Source: Fusobacteriia bacterium 4572_74
Lineage (GTDB): Bacteria; Fusobacteriota; Fusobacteriia; Fusobacteriales; Fusobacteriaceae
Length of the DNA stretch: 45,827 nt
Direction of reading: 5' to 3'
Assembly (NCBI GenBank): GCA_002084825.1
Contig: NBMF01000004.1
Location: 1 to 45,827 of the forward strand
In this document: piece after piece, positions 27,120 to 45,691 of the stretch
Position numbering within the stretch: the stretch's first letter is position 1
Layout of the letters: each line of letters starts with the position of its first letter
The notes under the pieces: model-generated
Seen by the model: only the letters and a program-made list of their open reading frames with translations
Database searches by the model: none
What the model was told of the DNA's origin: nothing
Made by a program: the position numbers and the translations under genes

Positions 27120-27139
27120 AAAAGAGTGGAGGAATATTT

Positions 27140-27625
27140 AAGTATTCAAAAGGTGATTCCTGTATTTTACAGGAGTCATCTTTAATTACTGATAGATATA
27201 TTCTCAGCCCACTTCCATAAGCTAAGTAACTAATATCTGTTGACATTGCTTTCATAGGGATTTCTTGTTTAAATTCTCAATTTTTAAAAATTTAATTTTA
27301 GCTTTTATTTTTTCTATTTTTTCATCTTTGTGCAGACTACTCAACTCTTTTAATGCCAATGATTTTAATATCAAGATCATTTTCTTCAAAGATTACTCTG
27401 AGTAATTTCTCTTTAGAATATTCTTCAATAAATTTTTCTTTAAATTCAATAGCATAGACAATAGATTTGGATGAGATTTTTAAAATATTTTAATTTTTAG
27501 ATAGTATTTTAATTTTCTTTTAAGTGAATAATTTTTTAGACATTTGGAACTCCTTAACCTTTATTTTTAAATATACAAAAAACCTGTAAATTTTGACACT
27601 TTTTTTCTAGTGTTTAGTCTACAGG
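27140..27625 (-). mobile_element. Degraded IS3-family (IS150-like) element relic
   Basis: The 545-bp gap between the permease and malK has no intact gene but carries transposase debris on the minus strand. From 27543 an AAGGAG-preceded ATG opens MSKKLFT and then stops. Further fragments in shifted frames read EFKEKFIEEYSKEKLLRVIF and IIGIKRVE, like an IS150-type OrfA, then a coiled-coil tail (EKIEKIKAKIKFLKIENL). Finally TDISYLAYGSGLRIYLSVIK, which matches the first-Asp region of IS3-family integrase cores. The rest of OrfB is deleted. Palindromic CCTGTA/TACAGG sequences occur near both edges and may be the old ends. At least two frameshifts and several stops make it inactive. Confidence 0.6.
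27577..27625 (-). terminator. Terminator downstream of malK
   Basis: On the minus strand CCTGTA and ACACT pair with AGTGT and TACAGG to form a two-part stem, followed by TTTTTT (27582-27577). It lies 40 bp beyond the malK stop and probably reuses the IS end. Confidence 0.55.
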
Positions 27626-27664
27626 TTACAGCATAATATGAGTCACCTTTTTTTTTATTGTTTT

Positions 27665-28789
27665 TTATACTAAAGATATATTTTCATCTGTTTCATAGTC
27701 AAAGATATGACATTTCTCCATATCAAACCAGAAGTTATAATTTTTTCTATTTCCCGTTTCTTTAACATTTTCAGAAGTTAATCTAGCAGAATATTGAATT
27801 CCATCTATTGTGAAGTAAATAAACTCCTCATTCCCCATTTGCTCTACGATAGAGATTTTTCCAGTTATGTACTCTTCCTTTTCTGGATGAGTTTCATGAG
27901 ATCTTATATGCTCTGGTCTGATTCCAAACCACACTTTTCTCCCCACATAATCCTTTACTTTTTCTGCCTTTTCCTCTGGCAGGTGTAAGATAGTTTTTCC
28001 TACTTTCACAGCAACCTTCCCTCCATCCATCAATAATTCAGATGGAATGATATTCATAGATGGTGAACCGATAAACCCTGCAACAAATTTATTTTGTGGT
28101 CTGCTGTATAGGTTGATAGGAGTGTCTACTTGCTTGATAACACCATATTCTAATACACAGATTCTGTCTCCCATAGTCATAGCTTCTACTTGGTCATGAG
28201 TAACATAGATCATGGTAGCAGGCTGACCAGCATCTTTTAATTCTTGATGTAATTGAGTGATTCTAACTCTCATAGAGACTCTTAATTTTGCATCTAAGTT
28301 TGATAGTGGTTCGTCAAATAGGAAAACTTCAGGTTTTCTAACAATAGCTCTTCCTACTGCTACCCTCTGTCTCTGCCCACCAGACATCTCCTTGGGCTTT
28401 CTGTCCAATAGATCAGTTATCTCTAATTTTGTAGCTGCATCCCTTACCCTTTCATCTATCTCAGACTTGGGTAATTTTTGTATTTTTAGACCAAATGCCA
28501 TATTTTCATAACAAGTCATATGGGGATAGAGTGCATAGTTTTGAAATACCATGGCAATACCTCTATCCTTAGGAGATAGTTCATTTACAACTTGATCTCC
28601 TATGATTATCTCTCCACCAGTAATATCTTCTAATCCAGCAATCATTCTAAGAGTTGTAGATTTTGCACAACCAGATGGACCGACAAATACCATGAATTCT
28701 CCATCTTTGATATCTAAATCTATCCCATGAACTGCCTTAAATCCATTTGGATATGTTTTTTCTACCTTTTTTAATTTTACTACTGCCAT
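27665..28789 (-). CDS. malK: MalK/MsmK/UgpC-type sugar ABC transporter ATPase
   Basis: Cytoplasmic ATPase that energises CUT1 sugar importers, 374 aa. The ABC domain contains a Walker A FVGPSGCAKSTTL, the signature MSGGQRQRVAVGRAI, Walker B EVFLFDEPLSNLD and the switch histidine YVTHDQVEAM. The C-terminal third (about 240-374) is the OB/TOBE regulatory domain (WFGIRPEHIRS). The Walker A has Ala where GxxxxGKS has Gly, which is unusual. AGGGGG precedes the ATG, inside the end of the second lacI gene 2 bp upstream. It is the only ABC ATPase in the window, so it probably serves both permease pairs. Confidence 0.93.
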   Translation of the reverse strand: MAVVKLKKVEKTYPNGFKAVHGIDLDIKDGEFMVFVGPSGCAKSTTLRMIAGLEDITGGEIIIGDQVVNELSPKDRGIAMVFQNYALYPHMTCYENMAFGLKIQKLPKSEIDERVRDAATKLEITDLLDRKPKEMSGGQRQRVAVGRAIVRKPEVFLFDEPLSNLDAKLRVSMRVRITQLHQELKDAGQPATMIYVTHDQVEAMTMGDRICVLEYGVIKQVDTPINLYSRPQNKFVAGFIGSPSMNIIPSELLMDGGKVAVKVGKTILHLPEEKAEKVKDYVGRKVWFGIRPEHIRSHETHPEKEEYITGKISIVEQMGNEEFIYFTIDGIQYSARLTSENVKETGNRKNYNFWFDMEKCHIFDYETDENISLV

Positions 28790-28791
28790 TT

Positions 28792-29781
28792 TTATCCCCC
28801 TGTATATATTTCCCTCAATACTATATTTAAATCTATCGATTGATTTCTTAAAAAGTTTTTACCCTCTAACTCCTCAAAGATCATCTGTACTGCCACTATT
28901 CCTTTAGTAGAAAAATTTAGATCTACAGAACTCAGAGTAGGAGTTGTATACTCACATGAATCCGTGTTATCAAATCCTATAATTTTTATATTTTCAGGTA
29001 TTTTTTTACCATTTTTTAAAAGGGATGATATTATCCCAAATGCCATTATGTCGGAAGCTATACATAGACCATCTATATCGGTTTTAGAGATCATTTCTCC
29101 CAATATTAAGCCCCCTTGGTAGGAGGGTTGTTCCAGATACAGTCTTTCTTCCCCCAAAGATGATTCTATAAGAGCACTTTGATATCCAAGATATCTCCTG
29201 CTGTGAACCTCTATATCATCGCTTCCAACAAAGGCTATATTTTTACAATTATTTTTAGCCAGAATTTCAGTGGCATTAAACCCTCCAATGGTATCATCAC
29301 TGTTAATATAATTAACACCATAGAGATTATTCTTGTAGTTATCTATAAAAACTATAGGAATATTTATTTTTTTAAGATCTTTTTCCTTGGAAGCATCCAG
29401 ATCTCCAATGATAATGATTCCCTCTAAATCTCTTTTTAATGCCCATTCCAATATGTTGAGTTCTTTGATATTATTTCCAATTACCAGGTCATACGACTTT
29501 TTTGAAAGTTCAGAAGTTATTGAATTTATTATTTTTTGATAGTAGTTATTTTTTTGAAAAATTTCATTTTCAATAGGAAATAAGATTCCAATTAAGTTAG
29601 ATTTTTTACTAGCCAAGGTTCTTGCTGCGCAATTAGGCTTATACCCTACCTTTTCCATTAGACCAAATATCTTTTTTTGAGTTTTCAGGCTGCATTTTCC
29701 TTTTCCGTTTATGACGTTAGAAACGGTAGATACAGAGAAACCAGATTGTTTAGCAATATCTTTAATTGTTAATTTTTCCAT
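28792..29781 (-). CDS. LacI-family transcriptional repressor (second)
   Basis: A 329-aa LacI/GalR regulator. The DNA-binding domain is LTIKDIAKQSGFSVSTVSNV, followed by the hinge YKPNCAARTLASKKSN; the effector-binding part includes NIAFVGSDDIEVHSRRYLGY and IIGFDNTDSCEYTTPTLSSV. The track starts at a GTG (29790), but AAGGGTGG lies there, so the ATG at 29781 is preferred. It is co-transcribed with malK, 2 bp apart. Its promoter region contains the perfect palindrome GGTAAAACGTTTTACC, which suggests autoregulation. It is divergent from malEFG. Confidence 0.9.
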   Translation of the reverse strand: MEKLTIKDIAKQSGFSVSTVSNVINGKGKCSLKTQKKIFGLMEKVGYKPNCAARTLASKKSNLIGILFPIENEIFQKNNYYQKIINSITSELSKKSYDLVIGNNIKELNILEWALKRDLEGIIIIGDLDASKEKDLKKINIPIVFIDNYKNNLYGVNYINSDDTIGGFNATEILAKNNCKNIAFVGSDDIEVHSRRYLGYQSALIESSLGEERLYLEQPSYQGGLILGEMISKTDIDGLCIASDIMAFGIISSLLKNGKKIPENIKIIGFDNTDSCEYTTPTLSSVDLNFSTKGIVAVQMIFEELEGKNFLRNQSIDLNIVLREIYTGG

Positions 29782-29794
29782 CTTCACCACCCTT

Positions 29795-29823
29795 GGTAAA
29801 ACGTTTTACCTAAGATTAGTATA
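29795..29823 (-). promoter_or_regulatory. lacI-malK promoter with 16-bp operator
   Basis: A minus-strand TATACT (29818-29823) with a weak -35 (TTTTAT, 17 bp away) is followed by the perfect palindrome GGTAAAACGTTTTACC (29795-29810), 14 bp before the ATG. Its core differs slightly from the GAAACGTTTC sites. Confidence 0.7.
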
Positions 29824-29907
29824 CTACACTTTTTGCAAAAATAAAACTCTTTTTAATAATGATAGTGTTAAATTGTTGTTATTTTGTTTTATTTTAATAC
29901 TAAACGG

Positions 29908-29966
29908 TTGACATTTTGGGAAAAATGAATTAAACTCTATATTAGAAGCGAAATGAAACGTTTCCA
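29908..29966 (+). promoter_or_regulatory. malEFG promoter with LacI-type operator
   Basis: TTGACA (29908-29913), a 17-bp spacer and TAAACT (29931-29936) are followed 18 bp later by GAAACGTTTC (29955-29964) with AGAAGCG just upstream. This copies the lamB promoter layout almost base for base around the -10 and operator. Confidence 0.82.
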
Positions 29967-29988
29967 AAAAATTTAAAAGGGGGCAGAA

Positions 29989-31089
29989 ATGAAAAAATTT
30001 TTATATGGAATGATGATTTTTATCTTATCATTTGGGATGATAGCATGTGGAGGAAAGGAAGAAAGCAAAGAAACACCTAAAGAAGTAAAAACTGATCAAA
30101 CGACAACAACTAATGAAATTGTACCGGAAGATGGTGCGGTATTAAAGGTATGAGAATCCAAGGGAACAGTTGGAGAATATATTAAATTTGCAGCAAAAAA
30201 ATATGAAGAAAAATATGGAGTACATGTTGTTTTAGAAGAAAACAATATATCTACTATTAAAAATAAAGTGATTCAAGATGGACCAGCAGGAACAGCAGCA
30301 GACGTTTTTGCTGCACCCCATGATCAAATTGGAGATTTAGTTCAATCAGGGCTTATCATGGAAAATTTATTGAGAGATAAATCTCAAAATAAATTTGGAA
30401 TTTTCTGGGACATTCCTAACTTTTATTATGCTCATATGTTCATGGCTATGGATGGGGGATATGTTTTCGGAAAAGATGGAAAAGATGCTAACGATATAGG
30501 TTTAGATAATGAAGGAGCTATTAAGGGAATAAATGAGATGTTGTTGTTAAAACCTATCTCAGTTGAAAATGCAGGAGATGTAAGTTATGATGCTATGACA
30601 GGTTTATTTGCAGAAGGGAAGGTCGCTGCTATTATAAATGGGCCATGGGGATTAGAAGGAGCAGAAAAATCAGGAATTAACTTTGATGTTGCGCCAATTC
30701 CTACATTTGATGGAAAACATCCAGCTTCTTTTTCTGGAATCAGAACTTTATTAGTAAACTCATATACTAAATATCCAAAGGCAGCTCAATTATTTGCTGA
30801 ATTTGCAACTTCTGATGAGATGTTAATTGAAAGATTTAAGATGACCAATCAATTACCGCCAGTTAAGGCATTGATAGATGCACCTGAGATTGTTAATCAC
30901 AAATACACAAAAGCTTTCTTAAAGCAAGCACAATATGCAGTACCTATGCCTGCGATTCCTGAGATGGGATTAATTTGGGAACCAGCAGGAGCAGCAGTTA
31001 CAGATATTTGGAATGAAAAGGTAACAACTGAAGAAGGGTTAAAAAATATGACTAAAATTATAAAAGAACAGATGGAAACTAGAAACTAG
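29989..31089 (+). pseudogene. malE: Maltose/maltodextrin-binding lipoprotein with in-frame TGA
   Basis: Periplasmic maltodextrin-binding lipoprotein of the MalE family, about 366 codons. The first ATG follows AAAAGGGGG and opens a lipoprotein signal peptide ending MIAC (Cys20) and a Thr/Lys-rich linker. Codon 55 (30151-30153) is TGA, in ALKV-stop-ESKGTVGEY, where MalE proteins carry tryptophan (E. coli LVIWINGDKG). The frame then stays open to the end with PAGTAADVFAAPHDQIGDLV, AAIINGPWGLEGA and FDVAPIPTFDGKHPASFSG. It is either a nonsense mutation, a sequencing error or read-through. The track's GTG at 30268 has no ribosome site and lies mid-domain. It is the first gene of malEFG. Confidence 0.85.
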
Positions 31090-31153
31090 TTATAAATTTA
31101 ATGAGCACTTGTTTTAACATGTGCTCAAATAATATGTAGAAAAGAGGTAGGAG

Positions 31154-32443
31154 ATGAATAGGGAAAAAAGATCAATATTGCTGTCTTGTCTTTTTATGGG
31201 ACTAGGGCAGTTGTATAATAAATATTTTCTTAAGGGGATAGTTTTATTTATAATTGAATTATTATATCTTATAAAGATGCCAAGGATGATAAAAGGGATT
31301 TGGGGAATTATAACCCTAGGGGAAACTTCTCAGACAACGAAAGGATTCCAAGTTATACAGGGAGATCATTCAATTTTTTTGCTGATTGAGGGTGTTGTAA
31401 CTATTATAATGTTGTTTATTCTGTTGGGGTTATATATATGGAATATTAAAGATGCTAAAAGACTAGGGCATGAGATGGATAATGGTAAATCTTATATGAC
31501 AACAAAAGAATATTTAACAAAGGTATACGATCGCAGCTTTGTATCTATAATGTTAACACCTGCTACATTGGGTGTTTTGTTTTTCATTTTGTTACCAATA
31601 TTAGTGACTGTCCTAGTAGCTTTTACAAATTATTCGGCACCAGATCATATCCCGCCTAGAAATTTAGTGGATTGGGTAGGGTTTAAGAACTTTATAGATA
31701 TTTTTGAATTAAAAATTTGGAGTAAAACATTTATAAAAGTAGGAAGTTGGACAATTGTATGGGCTATTCTTTCAACGTTGTTAAATTATTCGTGTGGACT
31801 TATCATGGCACTTATGATGAACAGAAAAAATATTAAATTCAAAGGTTTCTGGAGAACTATATTTATCCTGCCTTATGCTGTTCCGGCATTTATTTCTCTT
31901 TTGGTATTTAGATTACTATTTAGTGGAATTGGACCTGTTAATAATTTAATTGCCAGCTTCGGATTTGACAAGATACCTTTTTTAACAGATCCATTATTAG
32001 CAAAAGTTAGTCTGATACTGATCAATACGTGGCTTGGAGCACCATATTTTATGGTATTATTATCGGGATCTCTGACAAATATTTCAAGTTCAATCTATGA
32101 AGCAGCGGAGATTGATGGTGCATCTAAATGGGTTCGATTTTGGAAGATAACGTTACCGTTATTATTGTTTCAGACAGCACCTGTATTAATATTAACTTTT
32201 GCATATAACTTTAACAATTTTGGAGCAATATACCTGTTAACAAATGGAAAGCCTACCAATTCGGCTTTGAGATATGCAGGGGAAACAGATATTTTAATAA
32301 CCTGGATATTTAAATTAACCAGTGATCAAAGTCAATTTCAGATGGCGGCAGTGATATCAATAATTTTATTTATTTTTATAGCATCATTTTCCACGTATCA
32401 ATTTATGAAAAGTAAGTCATTCACAGAGGAGGATATGATGTAA
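31154..32443 (+). CDS. malF: Maltose/maltodextrin ABC transporter permease MalF
   Basis: Inner-membrane permease of 429 aa, longer than the first importer's MalF-like protein. It has an extra N-terminal part with two or three hydrophobic helices (FLKGIVLFIIELLYLI; IFLLIEGVVTIIMLFIL) before the transport core. The EAA loop reads IYEAAEIDGASKWVRFWKIT, and the preceding LNTWLGAPYFMVLLSGSL-like LINTWLGAPYFMVLLSG is typical MalF. GGTAGGAG precedes the ATG. It lies 64 bp after malE and overlaps malG by one base. Similar length and layout are known for maltodextrin permeases of the MalC/MdxF group. Confidence 0.92.
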   Translation: MNREKRSILLSCLFMGLGQLYNKYFLKGIVLFIIELLYLIKMPRMIKGIWGIITLGETSQTTKGFQVIQGDHSIFLLIEGVVTIIMLFILLGLYIWNIKDAKRLGHEMDNGKSYMTTKEYLTKVYDRSFVSIMLTPATLGVLFFILLPILVTVLVAFTNYSAPDHIPPRNLVDWVGFKNFIDIFELKIWSKTFIKVGSWTIVWAILSTLLNYSCGLIMALMMNRKNIKFKGFWRTIFILPYAVPAFISLLVFRLLFSGIGPVNNLIASFGFDKIPFLTDPLLAKVSLILINTWLGAPYFMVLLSGSLTNISSSIYEAAEIDGASKWVRFWKITLPLLLFQTAPVLILTFAYNFNNFGAIYLLTNGKPTNSALRYAGETDILITWIFKLTSDQSQFQMAAVISIILFIFIASFSTYQFMKSKSFTEEDMM

Positions 32444-33294
32444 TGAGTAAAACAAAAATTATAGATAATATTTTAGATGGATTAACATATCTCGGTTTAA
32501 TATTGATAACAGTCAGTGTATTTATGCCCCTAATATGGATTATATTGTCATCCATGCAGGTTGGAAACAGTCTCTACAGTTCGACCTTTTTACCAAAATC
32601 CTTGACACTGGATCATTATAAAGCTTTGTTTTCTCAAACAGATTTCCCAATTTGGTATATGAATACATTGAAAATAGCAACGTTGAATATGATTTTTGGA
32701 GTTATTATCACAACCCTTACAGCCTATACATTTTCTAGATATAAATTTAGAGGAAGAAAACAAGCTATGATAGGGATGCTGGTGTTACAGATGTTTCCAT
32801 CTTTCTTAGCTATGACAGCTATCTATATTTTAATCACTAAGATGGGTCTTATGGATACACATGCAGGACTTTTGATAGTATATGTTGCCGGACAAATTCC
32901 ATATAATTCATGGTTAGTAAAAGGATATTTTGATGGAATACCTAAGAGTTTGGATGAGGCAGCTAGAGTAGATGGAGCAGGGCATTTAACTATATTTTTA
33001 AAGATAATTATGCCTATTACCAAACCGATAGTTGTCTTTGTTGCGTTGACAAATTTTATTGGACCATGGTTTGACTTTATTTTTCCCAAACTATTACTTA
33101 GAAGTGCAGAGAAAAAAACTCTAGCTGTTGGGATTTTTGAATGGATCTCAAGTAGAGCAAATGACAACTTTACACAGTTTGCAGCAGCGTCTATCTTGAT
33201 TGCTGTACCTATTGCTGTTTTATTTATGTATCTGCAAAAACATATAGTGGCAGGATTATCTGCTGGAGCAACTAAGGAGTTTTTTATTGTTTAG
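32443..33294 (+). CDS. malG: Maltose/maltodextrin ABC transporter permease MalG
   Basis: Six-helix inner-membrane permease of 283 aa. The EAA loop is SLDEAARVDGAGHLTIFLKI, the C-terminus ends HIVAGLSAGATKEF, and LQMFPSFLAMTAIYIL matches MalG proteins. It overlaps malF by one base (TAATG), implying coupling. No ATPase follows; MalK is encoded 4.5 kb away on the other strand. No clear terminator lies in the 91 bp before the convergent FKBP gene. Confidence 0.92.
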   Translation: MSKTKIIDNILDGLTYLGLILITVSVFMPLIWIILSSMQVGNSLYSSTFLPKSLTLDHYKALFSQTDFPIWYMNTLKIATLNMIFGVIITTLTAYTFSRYKFRGRKQAMIGMLVLQMFPSFLAMTAIYILITKMGLMDTHAGLLIVYVAGQIPYNSWLVKGYFDGIPKSLDEAARVDGAGHLTIFLKIIMPITKPIVVFVALTNFIGPWFDFIFPKLLLRSAEKKTLAVGIFEWISSRANDNFTQFAAASILIAVPIAVLFMYLQKHIVAGLSAGATKEFFIV

Positions 33295-33385
33295 GAAATT
33301 ATAAAATCGGATCTTGCAACAATTGTATTTAAAGTTTCTAAAGATATAAATTTTCTCTAATTGAATGTAAAATCACGTTACTGTT

Positions 33386-33811
33386 TTACTTAACCTTTAT
33401 TACTTTTATCTGGAAATTAAGGGTCATTCCTGCATAGGGGTGATTTCCGTCTACGATCACTTTATCTTCCTCTGAGATAACTTCTTTTATAGTGAAAACT
33501 CCTACACCATCATCTGTATCAGCTTCAAATTCCAATCCTTCATATAGTCCCATCCCATCAAAATCCTCTATAGGCATCTCAATAGTTAGATTTTCATCAT
33601 ATTCTCCATATCCCTTATTAGGAGTTATTTTAACATTGAATTTATCTCCTGCTTTTCTCCCTAAAAGAGCTTCTTCTAGCCCTGCAACTACAGCTTCATC
33701 ACCATAGGTGAAATTTAACTCATCACCCTTGGTAGTTTTATCCAATAAATTTCCCTTATCATCTCTCAATATAAAATCTAAAGTTACTTTTTTTCCGTTT
33801 TCTATCTTCAT
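33386..33811 (-). CDS. FKBP-type peptidyl-prolyl isomerase, SlyD-like
   Basis: Cytoplasmic cis-trans prolyl isomerase/chaperone of the SlyD group, 141 aa. The FKBP half opens KVTLDFILRDDKGNLLDKTT and returns at LNFQIKVIKV. Between them lie YGDEAVVAGLEEALLGRKAGD and an inserted-flap domain (GYGEYDENLTIEMP to DGNHPYAGMTLNF), as in SlyD. The C-terminal histidine-rich metal tail of E. coli SlyD is absent. The track start at 33871 is too far upstream; AAGGAGAG precedes the ATG at 33811. It is convergent with malG and shows no functional link with the sugar genes. Confidence 0.88.
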   Translation of the reverse strand: MKIENGKKVTLDFILRDDKGNLLDKTTKGDELNFTYGDEAVVAGLEEALLGRKAGDKFNVKITPNKGYGEYDENLTIEMPIEDFDGMGLYEGLEFEADTDDGVGVFTIKEVISEEDKVIVDGNHPYAGMTLNFQIKVIKVK

Positions 33812-33896
33812 TTTTAATACTCTCCTTTTAATTATAATTCTAATTTTTTCCCCATCACAATTTTCACCCATAAAATCTCCATACTAAGATTTTTAA

Positions 33897-33970
33897 TCTG
33901 TATAATCTGCGACTTAGTCTTTTACTTTTTACTTTTTCATTATACATTGTCAATTGTACATTATATATTT
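33897..33970. repeat. Dispersed intergenic repeat, copy B, and low-complexity repeat
   Basis: TCTGTATAATCTGCGACTTA is similar to copies A and C. It is followed by TTTTACTTTTTACTTTTTC and then ATTATACATTGTCAATTGTA, an AT-rich partly palindromic run. The 194-bp gap between the FKBP gene and the DUF1294 gene contains no recognisable gene. Confidence 0.35.
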
Positions 33971-34005
33971 TAAATTCCAATCGGTAATCACTACTATCAA
34001 AGTTA

Positions 34006-34281
34006 TTAATTATTCATAAAAATTTTATAAAAATAATACCATCCATAAACTCCTACTACTATTGATATCGGTACCAATAGATTAAAATACCATTTTCTTA
34101 TTTTATGTCTAAAGGTATACATTCCAATAAATCCACCTATTCCACCACCTATAAAACAGAGGAGAAACAATATTTTTTCCGATATTCTGGAATAATATTT
34201 TTTAGCCTTATACTTGTCTATTCCAAAAATTAAAAAAGTTAATATATTAATAATACCTATATAAATATATATATATTTCAT
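34006..34281 (-). CDS. DUF1294 family small membrane protein
   Basis: A 91-aa protein with three hydrophobic segments (residues about 4-20, 37-57 and 68-87). The DUF1294 signature is visible as NILTFLIFGIDKYKAKK, SRISEKILFLLCFIGGGIGG and MYTFRHKIRKWYFN. Family function is unknown. AGGAGGAG lies just upstream of the ATG. It stands alone between two repeat-bearing intergenic stretches. Confidence 0.82.
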   Translation of the reverse strand: MKYIYIYIGIINILTFLIFGIDKYKAKKYYSRISEKILFLLCFIGGGIGGFIGMYTFRHKIRKWYFNLLVPISIVVGVYGWYYFYKIFMNN

Positions 34282-34411
34282 ATAACTCCTCCTATGTGGT
34301 TAGCACAAACTTAAAACTAATAACTAATAACTGGTAAATTCAATCCCTTATTTTTGTTACGAATTATATATATATTTGACCCCAATTATCAATTAATTCA
34401 ATTTATGTAAA

Positions 34412-34433
34412 TTTATGCAATCTGTGACTAGTT
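34412..34433 (+). repeat. Dispersed intergenic repeat, copy C
   Basis: TTTATGCAATCTGTGACTAG matches copy A (19131-19153, minus strand) at 16 of 22 positions and copy B (33897-33919) closely except for one inserted T. Confidence 0.4.
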
Positions 34434-34551
34434 TTAGATTTACTTTTAGATTTCTTAATTCTAATTTATTCTATCTTTTTTTTTAAAGTTTAAGAATTAT
34501 ATTCCATATCTCTTATTATTTTACCATATTTTTTTAAAAATATAATAAATT

Positions 34552-34593
34552 TAAAGGAGGTTTCTAGTATTTATAAACTAAAAACCTCCTTTT
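34552..34593 (-). terminator. Terminator downstream of glgP
   Basis: AAAGGAGGTTT pairs with AAACCTCCTTT around a loop of about 18 nt that itself contains TAGT/ACTA. It lies about 75 bp after the glgP stop on the minus strand; both sides are T-rich enough for it to act in either direction. Confidence 0.7.
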
Positions 34594-34669
34594 GATTTTA
34601 TTTAATAACCTTTTCTCTTCCTATATTTTAATATTTATAAACTTTTAAAATCAAAGATAAGAGATATAA

Positions 34670-37060
34670 TTATATTCTTTTTCCCTCTATTTTCCATATT
34701 TCTTTTGCATATTGAGCTATTGTTCTATCACTTGTAAATTTACCTGCATTGGATATATTCATCCATGCTTTCTTAGCCCATCCTAGTCTATCTTCAAAGA
34801 CACCATCGATACTATCTCTAACTTTTCTATAATCATCAAAATCTTGTAATACAAAATAATTATCTGGTGCATGCCAAGAGGCTCCTACCAAGAGTGCATC
34901 ATATAATTCTTTAAACATTCCTGTGTTACCATCACTATAAGTCCCGTCTATTAGCTGATCTATTACTTTTTTTAATCCCTTAGTTTCATTCATAACTTTA
35001 TTTGGATTATATCCAGATTTTTTTAACTCTATTATATCTTCTACCTTCATTCCAAAGATGAAGTTATTCTCGATTCCTGCTTCTTCTACTATCTCTACAT
35101 TTGCTCCATCTAATGTTCCTAGTGTAGGAGCTCCATTCATCATAAATTTCATATTTCCTGTTCCACTAGCTTCCTTTCCTGCTGTAGAAATTTGTTCCGA
35201 TATATCTGCTGCTGGAAATATAAGTTCAGCTGGTGAAATATTATAGTTTTCTACAAATACAACCTTTATTCTTCCATTTACATCCGAATCATTGTTTACA
35301 GTCTTTGCGACTTCATTGATTAATTTTATAATTCCCTTAGCTCTAAAATATCCAGATGCTGCCTTAGCTCCAAAGATATAAGTTTTAGGAGTTATTTTCA
35401 TCTCAGGTGTTTCTTTTATTCTATTATATAGATCCATTATATGAAATATATTCAATATTTGTCTCTTGTATTCGTGCAACCTTTTTACCTGTATATCAAA
35501 TATAGAGTTAGTGTCTACATTTATTCCTGTATTTTCCTTTATGAATCCAGCTAATTGTTCTTTTTTTATATTTTTTATATCTAAAAATCTATTTAATATA
35601 TTTTCATCTGTAACATAAGTTCCTAGTTTTTTTAATTCACTCAAATCAGTAATCCAATTGTCACCAATTAATTCTGTAATCAATTCAGATAATTCAGGAT
35701 TAGATTTTAACAGCCATCGTCTTTGAGTAACTCCATTAGTTTTATTTTGGAATTTTTCTGGGTATAATTCATACCAATCTTTTAATTCTACATTCTTTAA
35801 TATCTCTGTATGTAATGCTGCTACACCATTTACAGCATAAGATCCATAAATTGCAAGCCAGGCCATATGAATTAAATTAGTATTTTCATCGACTATTGCC
35901 ATCGTTTTTCGCCTTTCTAAATTTGTTGGATATTTTCCCTCCAACAACTCTTGAAATTGTACATGAATCCTTACGATTATATTATATATTCTAGGTAATA
36001 CCTCTTTAAATAACTCTGTATACCATTTTTCTAAAGCTTCCGATAAGATTGTATGATTGGTATATGCAAACGTTTTTGTAACTATTTCCCATGCATCCTT
36101 CCACAATAATCCCTCTACATCTATTAGAATTCTCATTAATTCAGGTATTGCTACCACTGGATGGGTATCATTTAATTGGATACTTGTAAAATCTGGTAAC
36201 ATACTAAAATCAGTTCCATGTTTTAACTTAAATTTTCTAATGATATCTTGTAATGATGCTGAGGTAAAGAAATATTGTTGTTTCAATCTTAATTTTTTCC
36301 CCTCATTAGTATCATCATTGGGATATAAAACTCTAGATATATTCTCTGCATCATTTTTTTCCTTCATAGCTTCTACATAATGTTGTTCATTGAATTCACC
36401 TAAATTTAATTCCTCTACTGCTTCTGCCTGCCATAACCTTAGTGTATTTATATTATTAGTTCCATATCCAATGATAGGTGTATCGTAAGGCACTGCCATT
36501 ACACTTTCATCTTTATTAAATCTTACTTCTATTTTATCCCTATCTTTTCTCAGACTCCAAGGATCACCATATTTTAACCAGTTATCTGGATATTCCACTT
36601 GGAATCCATCTTCAAATTGCTGCTTAAACATACCAAATTTATATCTAATACCATATCCTGTTCCAGGTAGATTTAAAGTTGCCATAGATTCGATAAAACA
36701 AGCTGCCAATCTTCCTAATCCACCATTACCTAGTCCTGCATCTGATTCAGCACCCTCTATTTTATTGATATCAACATTTAATTCTTCCAATAACTCCTTA
36801 ACTCCTTTATATACTCCCAAGTTGATTAAGTTATTACTAAATGCTCTTCCCATTAGATATTCTGCGGAAAAATAAAAAGCTTCTCTCCCATCATTATATA
36901 GGTCTTTAGTGGCTTTCCAAGATTCACCTATCTCTTCCATTATTGTTTGAGACAATGCATCATATATTTCAAAATCCAGTCCCTCAGATATTTTCTTTCC
37001 ATATTTAACCAATAATTTTTTTTCTAAACCTGTTTTGATTATATCTTTTTCAAATTTCAT
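34670..37060 (-). CDS. glgP: Glycogen/maltodextrin phosphorylase
   Basis: PLP-dependent alpha-glucan phosphorylase (GT35) that releases glucose-1-phosphate from alpha-1,4-glucans, 796 aa. The PLP-lysine region is intact (EASGTGNMKFMMNGAPTLGT), as are the N-terminal AEYLMGRAFSNNLINLG, GLGNGGLGRLAACF, and TNGVTQRRWL. No eukaryotic-type regulatory N-terminal extension is present. GGAGGG precedes the ATG. It is 87 bp downstream of malQ on the same strand and probably co-transcribed from the malQ promoter. With MalQ it converts imported maltodextrins to glucose-1-phosphate and glucose; malP would be an equally fair symbol. Confidence 0.94.
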   Translation of the reverse strand: MKFEKDIIKTGLEKKLLVKYGKKISEGLDFEIYDALSQTIMEEIGESWKATKDLYNDGREAFYFSAEYLMGRAFSNNLINLGVYKGVKELLEELNVDINKIEGAESDAGLGNGGLGRLAACFIESMATLNLPGTGYGIRYKFGMFKQQFEDGFQVEYPDNWLKYGDPWSLRKDRDKIEVRFNKDESVMAVPYDTPIIGYGTNNINTLRLWQAEAVEELNLGEFNEQHYVEAMKEKNDAENISRVLYPNDDTNEGKKLRLKQQYFFTSASLQDIIRKFKLKHGTDFSMLPDFTSIQLNDTHPVVAIPELMRILIDVEGLLWKDAWEIVTKTFAYTNHTILSEALEKWYTELFKEVLPRIYNIIVRIHVQFQELLEGKYPTNLERRKTMAIVDENTNLIHMAWLAIYGSYAVNGVAALHTEILKNVELKDWYELYPEKFQNKTNGVTQRRWLLKSNPELSELITELIGDNWITDLSELKKLGTYVTDENILNRFLDIKNIKKEQLAGFIKENTGINVDTNSIFDIQVKRLHEYKRQILNIFHIMDLYNRIKETPEMKITPKTYIFGAKAASGYFRAKGIIKLINEVAKTVNNDSDVNGRIKVVFVENYNISPAELIFPAADISEQISTAGKEASGTGNMKFMMNGAPTLGTLDGANVEIVEEAGIENNFIFGMKVEDIIELKKSGYNPNKVMNETKGLKKVIDQLIDGTYSDGNTGMFKELYDALLVGASWHAPDNYFVLQDFDDYRKVRDSIDGVFEDRLGWAKKAWMNISNAGKFTSDRTIAQYAKEIWKIEGKRI

Positions 37061-37075
37061 GTATTTCCCTCCATA

Positions 37076-37088
37076 TCGCTTATAGCGA
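37076..37088 (-). other. Short hairpin upstream of glgP ribosome site
   Basis: TCGCT and AGCGA flank a 3-nt loop, immediately before GGAGGG. A very similar TTCGC/GCGAA hairpin lies before the malQ ribosome site. Confidence 0.45.
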
Positions 37089-37147
37089 AATTAAAAATAA
37101 TTTAGACTTACTTTTCACATTCAAAATTTATTTCTAGCTGTTCTTCT

Positions 37148-38644
37148 CTATCTATCATATTTAATTGTAATTTCCTTTATTTTTTTAGCTAATTCATCGG
37201 TAAGTTCATCACCTTTTAATCTCCATTTCCAGTTATTCCCGAGTGTTGACGGTATATTCATCCTGGCTCTATTGTCCAATCCTAAAAAATCCTGCATCTG
37301 AGCTATACTCAAATTAGAATTAGATTTCCAAATAGCTTCTATGAATACATTGTTTATTTTTTCAACCTCAAACTTTTTTAACTTTAAATATTTTTTCAAA
37401 TATTTTTCAGCATGTTCTCTGTCATTTTTTGCTATATTCCCATACCATCCTACCACGGTTTCATTGTCATGTGTTCCTGTGTAAGCCACAGAATTTTTAG
37501 GATATTTATGAGGAAGATAGTCACTCTCTTCCCTTGAATCAAAAGCAAACTCCAATATTTTCATCCCTGGATATTTACTATCTTTCAAAAGTTTTCTTAC
37601 TCTATTGGTTAAAAAACCTAGATCCTCAGCAATGATAGGTAGATCTCCTAATTCATTTTTTATAGCCTTAAATACCTCTATTCCTGGTCCCTTTACCCAT
37701 TTTCCAAGTCTAGCAGTAGAAGCATTTGCTGGAATCTCCCAATAGGATTCAAATCCTCTAAAATGATCTATCCTTACCATATCATATAGCTCAAACGCTG
37801 CCCTCATTCTTTCAATCCACCATGAGTACCCTCGTCTTCTCATAATTTTCCAATTATACACTGGATTTCCCCATAGTTGACCTGTTTTACTAAAAGCATC
37901 TGGCGGGCACCCTGCCACAACCTTTATATTTTTTTTCTCATCAAACAAAAATAACTCTGTTTTTAACCATGCATCTACACTGTCACCAGATATAAATATA
38001 GGCAGGTCACCTATTATTTTTACTTTATTTTTATTAGCATAGCTTTTTAATTTTCCCCATTGAGTATAAAATAAATATTGCAAGTAGATATAGTAATCTA
38101 TCCTACCTTTAAGCTCTCTTCTATATTTTTTTAGAGTATTAATATGGGCAAATTTTTCTTCCTTTACCCATTTTGTCCACTCTACACCATTATTTTTATC
38201 TTTTAATACCATGAATAGAGCATAATCATCTATCCAGTAGATATGTTTTTTTTTAAATTGTTCTATCTCTTCTAAAAAACTTTCCCCTTCATTTAAGTAA
38301 GCTTTTTCCAAAAGTTTTAATTTGTTTTCATATAGTTTTTCATAGTCTATATATTCTCTGTTATCTCCTAAATTTGTATCTTTCACATCTTGTCTCTCGA
38401 GTCCACCTCTCTCTATTAACTCTTCTAAATCAATAAAATAAGGATTTCCTGCAAAGGCTGAAAAAGATTGATACGGAGAATCGCCATATGAAGTTGTCCC
38501 CAGTGGTAAAATCTGCCATAATTTTTGTCCTGATTTTTTTAAAAAATCAACAAATTCATAAGCTTCTTTGCCAAAGGTTCCTATTCCTCTATCTCCACCT
38601 AAAGATGAGATATGTAACAATATCCCACTGCTTCTTTCAAACAT
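37148..38644 (-). CDS. malQ: 4-alpha-glucanotransferase (amylomaltase)
   Basis: GH77 disproportionating enzyme that transfers glucan chains between maltodextrins, 498 aa. Signature segments are LLHISSLGGDRGIGTFGKEA, WQILPLGTTSYGDSPYQSFSAFAGNP, the nucleophile Asp region MVRIDHFRGFESYW, the acid/base region IIAEDLGFLT and YTGTHDNETVVGWY. It is the short bacterial form without the extra N-terminal domain of E. coli MalQ. GGGGGG-type ribosome site precedes the ATG. It is the promoter-proximal gene of malQ-glgP, under a LacI-type operator. Confidence 0.95.
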   Translation of the reverse strand: MFERSSGILLHISSLGGDRGIGTFGKEAYEFVDFLKKSGQKLWQILPLGTTSYGDSPYQSFSAFAGNPYFIDLEELIERGGLERQDVKDTNLGDNREYIDYEKLYENKLKLLEKAYLNEGESFLEEIEQFKKKHIYWIDDYALFMVLKDKNNGVEWTKWVKEEKFAHINTLKKYRRELKGRIDYYIYLQYLFYTQWGKLKSYANKNKVKIIGDLPIFISGDSVDAWLKTELFLFDEKKNIKVVAGCPPDAFSKTGQLWGNPVYNWKIMRRRGYSWWIERMRAAFELYDMVRIDHFRGFESYWEIPANASTARLGKWVKGPGIEVFKAIKNELGDLPIIAEDLGFLTNRVRKLLKDSKYPGMKILEFAFDSREESDYLPHKYPKNSVAYTGTHDNETVVGWYGNIAKNDREHAEKYLKKYLKLKKFEVEKINNVFIEAIWKSNSNLSIAQMQDFLGLDNRARMNIPSTLGNNWKWRLKGDELTDELAKKIKEITIKYDR

Positions 38645-38657
38645 ATTTATTCCCCCC

Positions 38658-38672
38658 TTCGCCTATAGCGAA
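38658..38672 (-). other. Short hairpin upstream of malQ ribosome site
   Basis: TTCGC and GCGAA flank a 5-nt loop just before the G-rich ribosome site; partner of the similar hairpin before glgP. Confidence 0.45.
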
Positions 38673-38797
38673 TTAATCATTTAAATTTTATAATTAAACT
38701 TAAAATTTTACACTAAGTAAGTATAATAGTAATGATTTTATTTGTATGATTAGTGATTTAAGTTTTAAAGGTACTGGATTTATAATTTTTTTATTTT

Positions 38798-38843
38798 GGA
38801 ATCGTTTCCGTATAATTTTAATACAAAAAACAACTCTTGTCAA
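38798..38843 (-). promoter_or_regulatory. malQ-glgP promoter with LacI-type operator
   Basis: On the minus strand TTGACA (38838-38843), a 17-bp spacer and TAAAAT (38815-38820) are followed five bases later by GGAAACGATTCC (38798-38809), one mismatch from the GGAAACGTTTCC operator at lamB and malE. The 5' leader is about 155 nt. Confidence 0.8.
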
Positions 38844-38934
38844 GAAAAGTTATTGTAGTTTTTTAAAACCTATATTTTGAGCTAATTAATTTGAAGAATA
38901 TAGTATTTTAAATAATTCCAGCTGCACGAAATAT

Positions 38935-38989
38935 TAGTTAATAAGAGTATATATTTTTTTTAGAAAAAAATATATACTCTTATTAACTA
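38935..38989. repeat. Perfect 26-bp inverted repeat with 3-nt loop
   Basis: TAGTTAATAAGAGTATATAT plus a T run (38935-38960) is the exact reverse complement of 38964-38989, with TAG as the loop. It lies between the divergent malQ and rsmB promoters, so there is no obvious upstream transcript for it to terminate. The remainder of the 411-bp gap (38645-39055) holds the two promoters and the malQ leader. Confidence 0.85.
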
Positions 38990-44178: not shown

Positions 44179-45691
44179 ATGGAAAAAATGGTAGAATTTA
44201 AAAAATTAGGATTGTCGGATAAAACATTAGTAGCTTTAGAAAAAAAAGGATTTGAGAAGCCAAGTCCAATACAAGCTCTTACTATCCCTGCTCTTCTTAA
44301 TGGAGACAAAGATATTATAGGTCAAGCACAAACGGGGACAGGTAAAACAGCAGCTTTCTCATTACCTATCTTAGAAAAGATGGATGAAAACAAAAGAGGT
44401 GTAAAAGCAATAGTTTTAGCACCTACAAGAGAATTAGCTATTCAAGTAGCAGAAGAGATCAATTCTTTAAAAGGGGAAAGAAGATTAACTGTACTTCCAG
44501 TATATGGTGGTCAAGCAATGGATCAACAGATCAGAGCTCTTAGAAGAGGAGTAGATATCGTAGTTGGAACTCCAGGAAGAGTACAAGACCATATCAGAAG
44601 AAAAACTTTAGTAATAGATAACTTAGATTTCTTTATCTTAGATGAAGCGGATGAAATGTTAAAAAATTTATTTTGAAGTAAGAGATGGAGATAAATTTGA
44701 AGCTCTTTGTAGAGTAGTAGATGTAGAAATAGACTTCTACGGAATTGTATTCTGTAGAACTAAAAATGATGTAGATGGTGTAGTAAGCAAACTTATTGAA
44801 AGAGGGTATGAAGCTGAAGGAATCCATGGAGATATATCACAGGCTCAAAGAGAAAGAACTCTTAGAAAATTTAAAACAAAAAATGTAAGTATTTTAGTAG
44901 CTACAGACGTAGCAGCAAGAGGAATAGATGTCAATGACCTTACTCATGTAATTAACTATTCTATACCACAAGAAGCTGAGGCATATGTACATAGAATTGG
45001 TAGAACTGGTAGAGCAGGTAAAAAAGGTGTGGCTATAACATTTGTTACTCCTAGAGAAATGGGTAAATTAAGTAGAATCAAAAGAGTAGCTAATGCAGAG
45101 ATTAAAAAATCAACTATTCCTGAAATAGAAGAAGTTTTAAAAGCTAAGAAGGAAAGTTTATATGCTTGTGTAGGAGAGATAATTTCAGAGAAGGATTTCT
45201 CAGTATATTCTGAAATGGCAGCTGAGCTATCTGTAGAAAGTGACCCTGTAGAAGTAATTGCAGCATTATTAAGACATGTATATGATGATGAATTTGATAA
45301 GGAAACTTATAGAAAGATCAGAAACAATATGGGATCAAATGATAGAAGAGATAGAAATGGAAGAAACGATAGAAATGGAAGAAGCGATAGAAACGATAGA
45401 AACGATAGAAACGATAGAAATGGAAGAAACGATAGAAACGGAAGACAGACTTTAGACAACCAAACTAGATTATTTATCGGGATGGGTAAAAAAGACGATT
45501 TAGATGCTAAAAAATTATTAGCTATTGTTAATAAAGAAGCTAAAGTTCCAGGAAGAAAAATCAAAGATATTAAAATTATGAATGAATTTTCATTTATGAC
45601 AGTTCCATATTCTGAAGCAGAGGATATTATCCATGCGTTGAATGCTACTAGAAAAGGTGGAAGACCATTAGTAGAAAAAGCTAAGAACTAA
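44179..45691 (+). pseudogene. DEAD-box ATP-dependent RNA helicase, internal deletion and frameshift
   Basis: RNA helicase of the CsdA/DeaD/CshA type. The N-terminal part has the Q motif KPSPIQALTIP, Walker A AQTGTGKT, PTRELA, TPGR and DEAD (in LDEADEML). Immediately after DEML the frame stops (TGA at 44674-44676). The rest continues in another frame from about 44666: IYFEVRDGDKFEALCR, FCRTK, LVATDVAARGIDV and HRIGRTGRAG. About 80 residues that should carry motif III (SAT) are missing, so the two helicase lobes are disconnected. The C-terminus has an Arg/Asn/Asp repeat and a DbpA-like RNA-binding domain (RLFIGMGKKDDLDAKKLLAI). The track start at 45029 is internal. It could also be an assembly collapse. 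Confidence 0.88.
45345..45446 (+). repeat. In-frame 9-nt tandem repeats in helicase tail
   Basis: Repeats of AGAAACGAT and AGAAATGGA encode Arg-Asn-Asp and Arg-Asn-Gly triplets (NDRNDRNDRNGRNDRNGR). This is a basic, probably disordered RNA-binding linker before the C-terminal domain. Such repeats are prone to copy-number change. Confidence 0.85.

Follow-up and report, generated by a model that had tools for sequence, protein, structure and literature searches.

The window, by which we mean the whole stretch of DNA analyzed here (45,827 nucleotides), carries a malEFG cluster next to genes for a MalK-type ATPase and a LacI-family regulator, and its malE-like gene is broken as assembled. The features needed below are the following:

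27665..28789, minus strand: gene for a MalK/UgpC-type ATPase, intact (comparison with relatives; profile match)
28792..29790, minus strand: gene for a LacI-family regulator, intact, adjoining malE here but not in relatives (comparison with relatives)
29940..29975, plus strand: conserved region upstream of malE with the operator-like palindrome TGAAACGTTTCCA (alignment)
29989..31089, plus strand: malE-like gene for a CUT1 sugar-binding lipoprotein, broken as assembled, with one internal stop in frame
30151..30153, plus strand: in-frame TGA, codon 55 of malE; TGG (Trp) in relatives
30374..30375, plus strand: point at which 177 bp (59 codons) are missing when compared with malE of four same-genus genomes (alignment; blastn with the same-genus genome G007 gives the same place)
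31154..32443, plus strand: malF, intact (comparison with relatives; profile match)
32443..33294, plus strand: malG, intact (comparison with relatives; profile match)
44179..45691, plus strand: gene for a DEAD-box RNA helicase, disrupted by a clean deletion of 176 bp near 44663 (comparison with relatives)

The malEFG, malK-lacI, and glgP/malQ neighborhoods stand apart in relatives and are found together in the window at 27120-38980. A synteny break separates lacI from malE at about 29875, and relatives carry the block from 33.3 to 38.9 kb in the opposite orientation. About 330 bp of noncoding sequence at 27317-27669 match many places in the relatives' genomes at approximately 69 to 84% identity and constitute a dispersed repeat, for which no Rfam match was found.

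The malE frame runs from the ATG at 29989 to the stop at 31089, and the TGA at codon 55, its sole internal stop, keeps it from being open between signal peptide and stop. A lipobox-like MIACGG near the start, judged by eye, and the presence of malF and malG behind the gene agree with a transporter-associated lipoprotein. The relatives include none of the window's own species. All four same-genus genomes have TGG at this codon within an open malE frame, and Trp occupies the position in each of the eight alignable proteins from relatives, which come from seven genomes and include more distant ones. This is the comparison of codons in close relatives that the first-pass annotation had proposed, and it bears out the claim made there that a TGG-to-TGA change put an in-frame stop in place of a conserved Trp. 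The same annotation had described the operator and the downstream malFG genes as intact, which also holds: TGAAACGTTTCCA is invariant in 5/5 aligned sequences, and malF and malG are whole in comparison with relatives.

The assertion that the malE frame is intact apart from the TGA, on the other hand, proved wrong. Alignment with the four relatives revealed that exactly 177 bp are absent at 30374/30375; as this deletion is in frame, it leaves no trace in the reading frame. The frame as assembled spans 366 residues, versus 424 to 425 in the three same-genus orthologues measured. When aligned to E. coli MalE, the absent 59 residues fall in the hinge region, on a stretch which we take to be part of the hinge and to hold the ligand residue Glu111. 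Accordingly, the window's malE does not encode a complete two-lobe binding domain as assembled, and the Pfam SBP_bac_8 score drops from 154.7 to 91.4 bits, with the match broken in two. No second intact malE was found in the assembled part of the window's genome, which is 63% complete.

The first-pass annotation had listed read-through of the UGA among its explanations, which would allow the protein to be made with Trp or selenocysteine at codon 55. The genome indeed possesses a selenocysteine tRNA (selC, L142:17528-17624, anticodon TCA), and a 121-nt stretch around the UGA forms a better fold than most of its shuffled versions (z -2.89), partly on account of a hairpin located wholly upstream of the codon. 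However, no SECIS-like hairpin was detected in 30151-30200: this 50-nt segment, which starts at the UGA and covers the place expected for a bacterial SECIS, folds like shuffles (z -0.15). In relatives the codon is TGG and neither TGA nor one for Cys, so that a selenoprotein is not suggested, nor is a reassigned code. Reassignment of UGA to Trp, with frequent in-frame UGA and a UCA tRNA-Trp, is likewise at odds with the data, considering that 66,500 codons contain no clean internal stop other than the malE TGA, that the tRNA-Trp is normal with anticodon CCA (L213:12970-13045), and that TGA terminates three intact genes of the window. Since 59 hinge-region residues are absent, the read-through product would not be a working MalE as assembled. 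On the grounds of the tRNAs, downstream folding, TGA usage, and TGG in relatives, we rejected recoding to Sec or Trp, and we regard production of the protein by read-through as very improbable. We give equally little credence to a variant in which the UGA is real and leakily decoded, limiting the amount of MalE in a genome-reducing Psychrilyobacter, with the 177-bp loss a mere assembly gap. That the TGA is ordinary, either a nonsense mutation or a base error, appears nearly certain, and the first-pass annotation's pair of a recent nonsense mutation or a base-call error is still the correct one to choose from.

The assembly is a draft of 1.37 Mb in 77 contigs. When 607 kb of the window's genome were compared with approximately 1.3 Mb of G007, 228,576 bases were aligned, in which we counted 43 clean deletions versus 3 insertions; deletions of 60 to 320 bp numbered 37 in these 229 kb. 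Among the genes struck were rpsB (154-bp deletion at L137:4457, frameshift), gmk (16-bp deletion with the break at L210:8446/8449, frameshift), and valS (7-bp deletion, frameshift), the first two found in one copy only in the genome. A gene near a contig end, read as rplA from its sequence, was also hit by a deletion, and in-frame stretches were missing from genes read by sequence as rpoC, leuS, hslU, and ruvB. The essential genes affected are otherwise well conserved. Cells do not survive the loss of rpsB, gmk, or valS, which argues that the clean deletions are assembly artifacts; in the simplest reading of the sequence comparison, they very probably represent short gaps between contigs closed without N. 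No N letters occur across the 607 kb. In the regions of relatives that were compared, G006 and G007 had few clean differences of 60 to 320 bp (0 to 2 per 103 to 108 kb) and G002 had more (7 to 10, several with loose junctions); the genes of the window region are whole in all three. Overlap at the deletion junctions averaged 2.3 bases versus 1.4 in simulated clean cuts and was thus about equally blunt. Microhomology was considered as a mark of real deletions and rejected, as it was not clearly above the simulated blunt cuts.

The deletion in malE fits this class by its size and form and is most likely a closed-up assembly gap as well. The 176-bp deletion in the DEAD-box helicase gene, one base off the 177 bp of malE, is a second such lesion in the window. 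Given true decay in the lineage, some clean deletions, that in malE included, may nevertheless be real.

Evidence for such decay is found at several levels. The ratio of nonsynonymous to synonymous private changes (N/S) is 0.58 in the window's lineage versus 0.23 to 0.38 in relatives, and the GC content is lower, at 30.7% versus 32.2%. At L212:8864-15284 (contig C15 of the window's genome, G000), remnants of permease-like, lipoprotein, ABC ATPase, and permease genes are riddled with deletions and stops; this has the look of genuine gene erosion and differs from the single clean gaps in other places. The raised N/S, lower GC, and shredded loci imply that real gene loss occurs in this lineage. 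A literature search on pseudogenes in Psychrilyobacter yielded nothing relevant. In addition, private changes of the lineage across the window (1-45827) are biased from G:C to A:T, as in genome reduction. All of this, together with the presence of two lesions in a single gene, would suit a true malE pseudogene with a nonsense mutation and a real in-frame 177-bp deletion in a genome-reducing lineage. However, the deletion shares its form with those in the indispensable rpsB, gmk, and valS, and at the observed density the chance of a deletion in a 1.3-kb gene is already about 0.2. Moreover, malF, malG, malK, and the operator are without lesion. We therefore consider two real lesions in malE unlikely. 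Private changes in malE (10 nonsynonymous/15 synonymous) lie within the range of its neighbors malF (18/23), malK (9/13), and malG (7/18), indicating that any inactivation is recent.

This leaves the nature of the TGA. In 199 genes, no clean nonsense codon was seen other than codon 55 of malE; the four remaining stops in this set fall within genes that are shredded (L212, L141) or within a presumed spurious open reading frame. No one-base frameshift errors stood out across the 199 genes, so that base-level quality seems good. A higher error rate by gap junctions was also considered and rejected, as raised divergence was looked for close to the deletion junctions and not seen. Good base quality and flat divergence near junctions slightly favor a real TGA, and on sequence grounds we lean towards a genuine change; a base error is possible but the less probable of the two.

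In the latter case both lesions could be artifacts, the TGA a consensus base error and the 177 bp a closed-up gap, with malE intact in the cell. The assembly is demonstrably faulty, most likely in malE too, and we estimate that about one nonsense codon is to be expected in approximately 200 kb of coding sequence if substitution errors occur at around 1 per 10,000 bases. Conservation of the operon and operator, and constraint on malE like that on its neighbors, also fit an intact gene. Set against this are the high apparent base quality and the flat divergence described above, and we are inclined to doubt, while taking seriously, that both lesions are artifacts.

The reading that we tentatively prefer, at just short of an even chance, combines a very recent, real TGG-to-TGA nonsense mutation with a separate 177-bp loss that is an assembly gap closed without N. 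In this Psychrilyobacter lineage, under relaxed selection, malE would have gained an ordinary nonsense codon very recently, and the missing 177 bp would reflect the closing up of a gap and no mutation. With a real TGA, translation would end after 54 codons, the lipoprotein would not be made, and the MalFGK transporter would be left without its binding protein. It would then be a further case in which a lineage under relaxed selection has recently lost a gene for sugar uptake.

The malE finding is ordinary; its useful part is the warning that it gives on the assembly. A tidy, single-lesion candidate for recoding can hide a second, in-frame lesion that is missed by reading the frame alone, and because clean deletions strike indispensable genes, this draft genome is unsuited to pseudogene calling. 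A different kind of interruption was noticed at L227:3919-6050 (contig C30 of G000), where approximately 2.1 kb are inserted into polC, read from its sequence as encoding DNA polymerase III, after the conserved VPDIDL motif. Within the insert, Rfam RF02004 matches a group II intron core at L227:3986-4185 (112.5 bits), and frames show YADD stretches like those of reverse transcriptases as well as HNH-like ones; the insert is probably a self-splicing intron in an essential gene.

Among known systems, the locus comes closest to the MalE/CUT1 type: the intact G007 orthologue matches the sugar-binding lipoprotein families (Pfam SBP_bac_1, SBP_bac_8) over its length and lies upstream of malF and malG, whereas the window's copy differs by the codon-55 stop and the 59 absent residues. 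The best NCBIfam matches of the malE-like protein are to the GanS (NF053763) and MalE (NF007011) models, and even the intact protein scores under both equivalog cutoffs, so that any assignment of a substrate is tentative. Bacterial pseudogenes that arise by nonsense mutation resemble malE in the single G-to-A change giving TGA in an otherwise conserved gene, but the rest of malE is constrained like its neighbors and not yet relaxed. The 177-bp deletion has its counterpart in closed-up gaps of draft assemblies, with which the deletions in this genome share their blunt form, sizes mostly of 60 to 310 bp, absence of N, and occurrence in genes regardless of essentiality.
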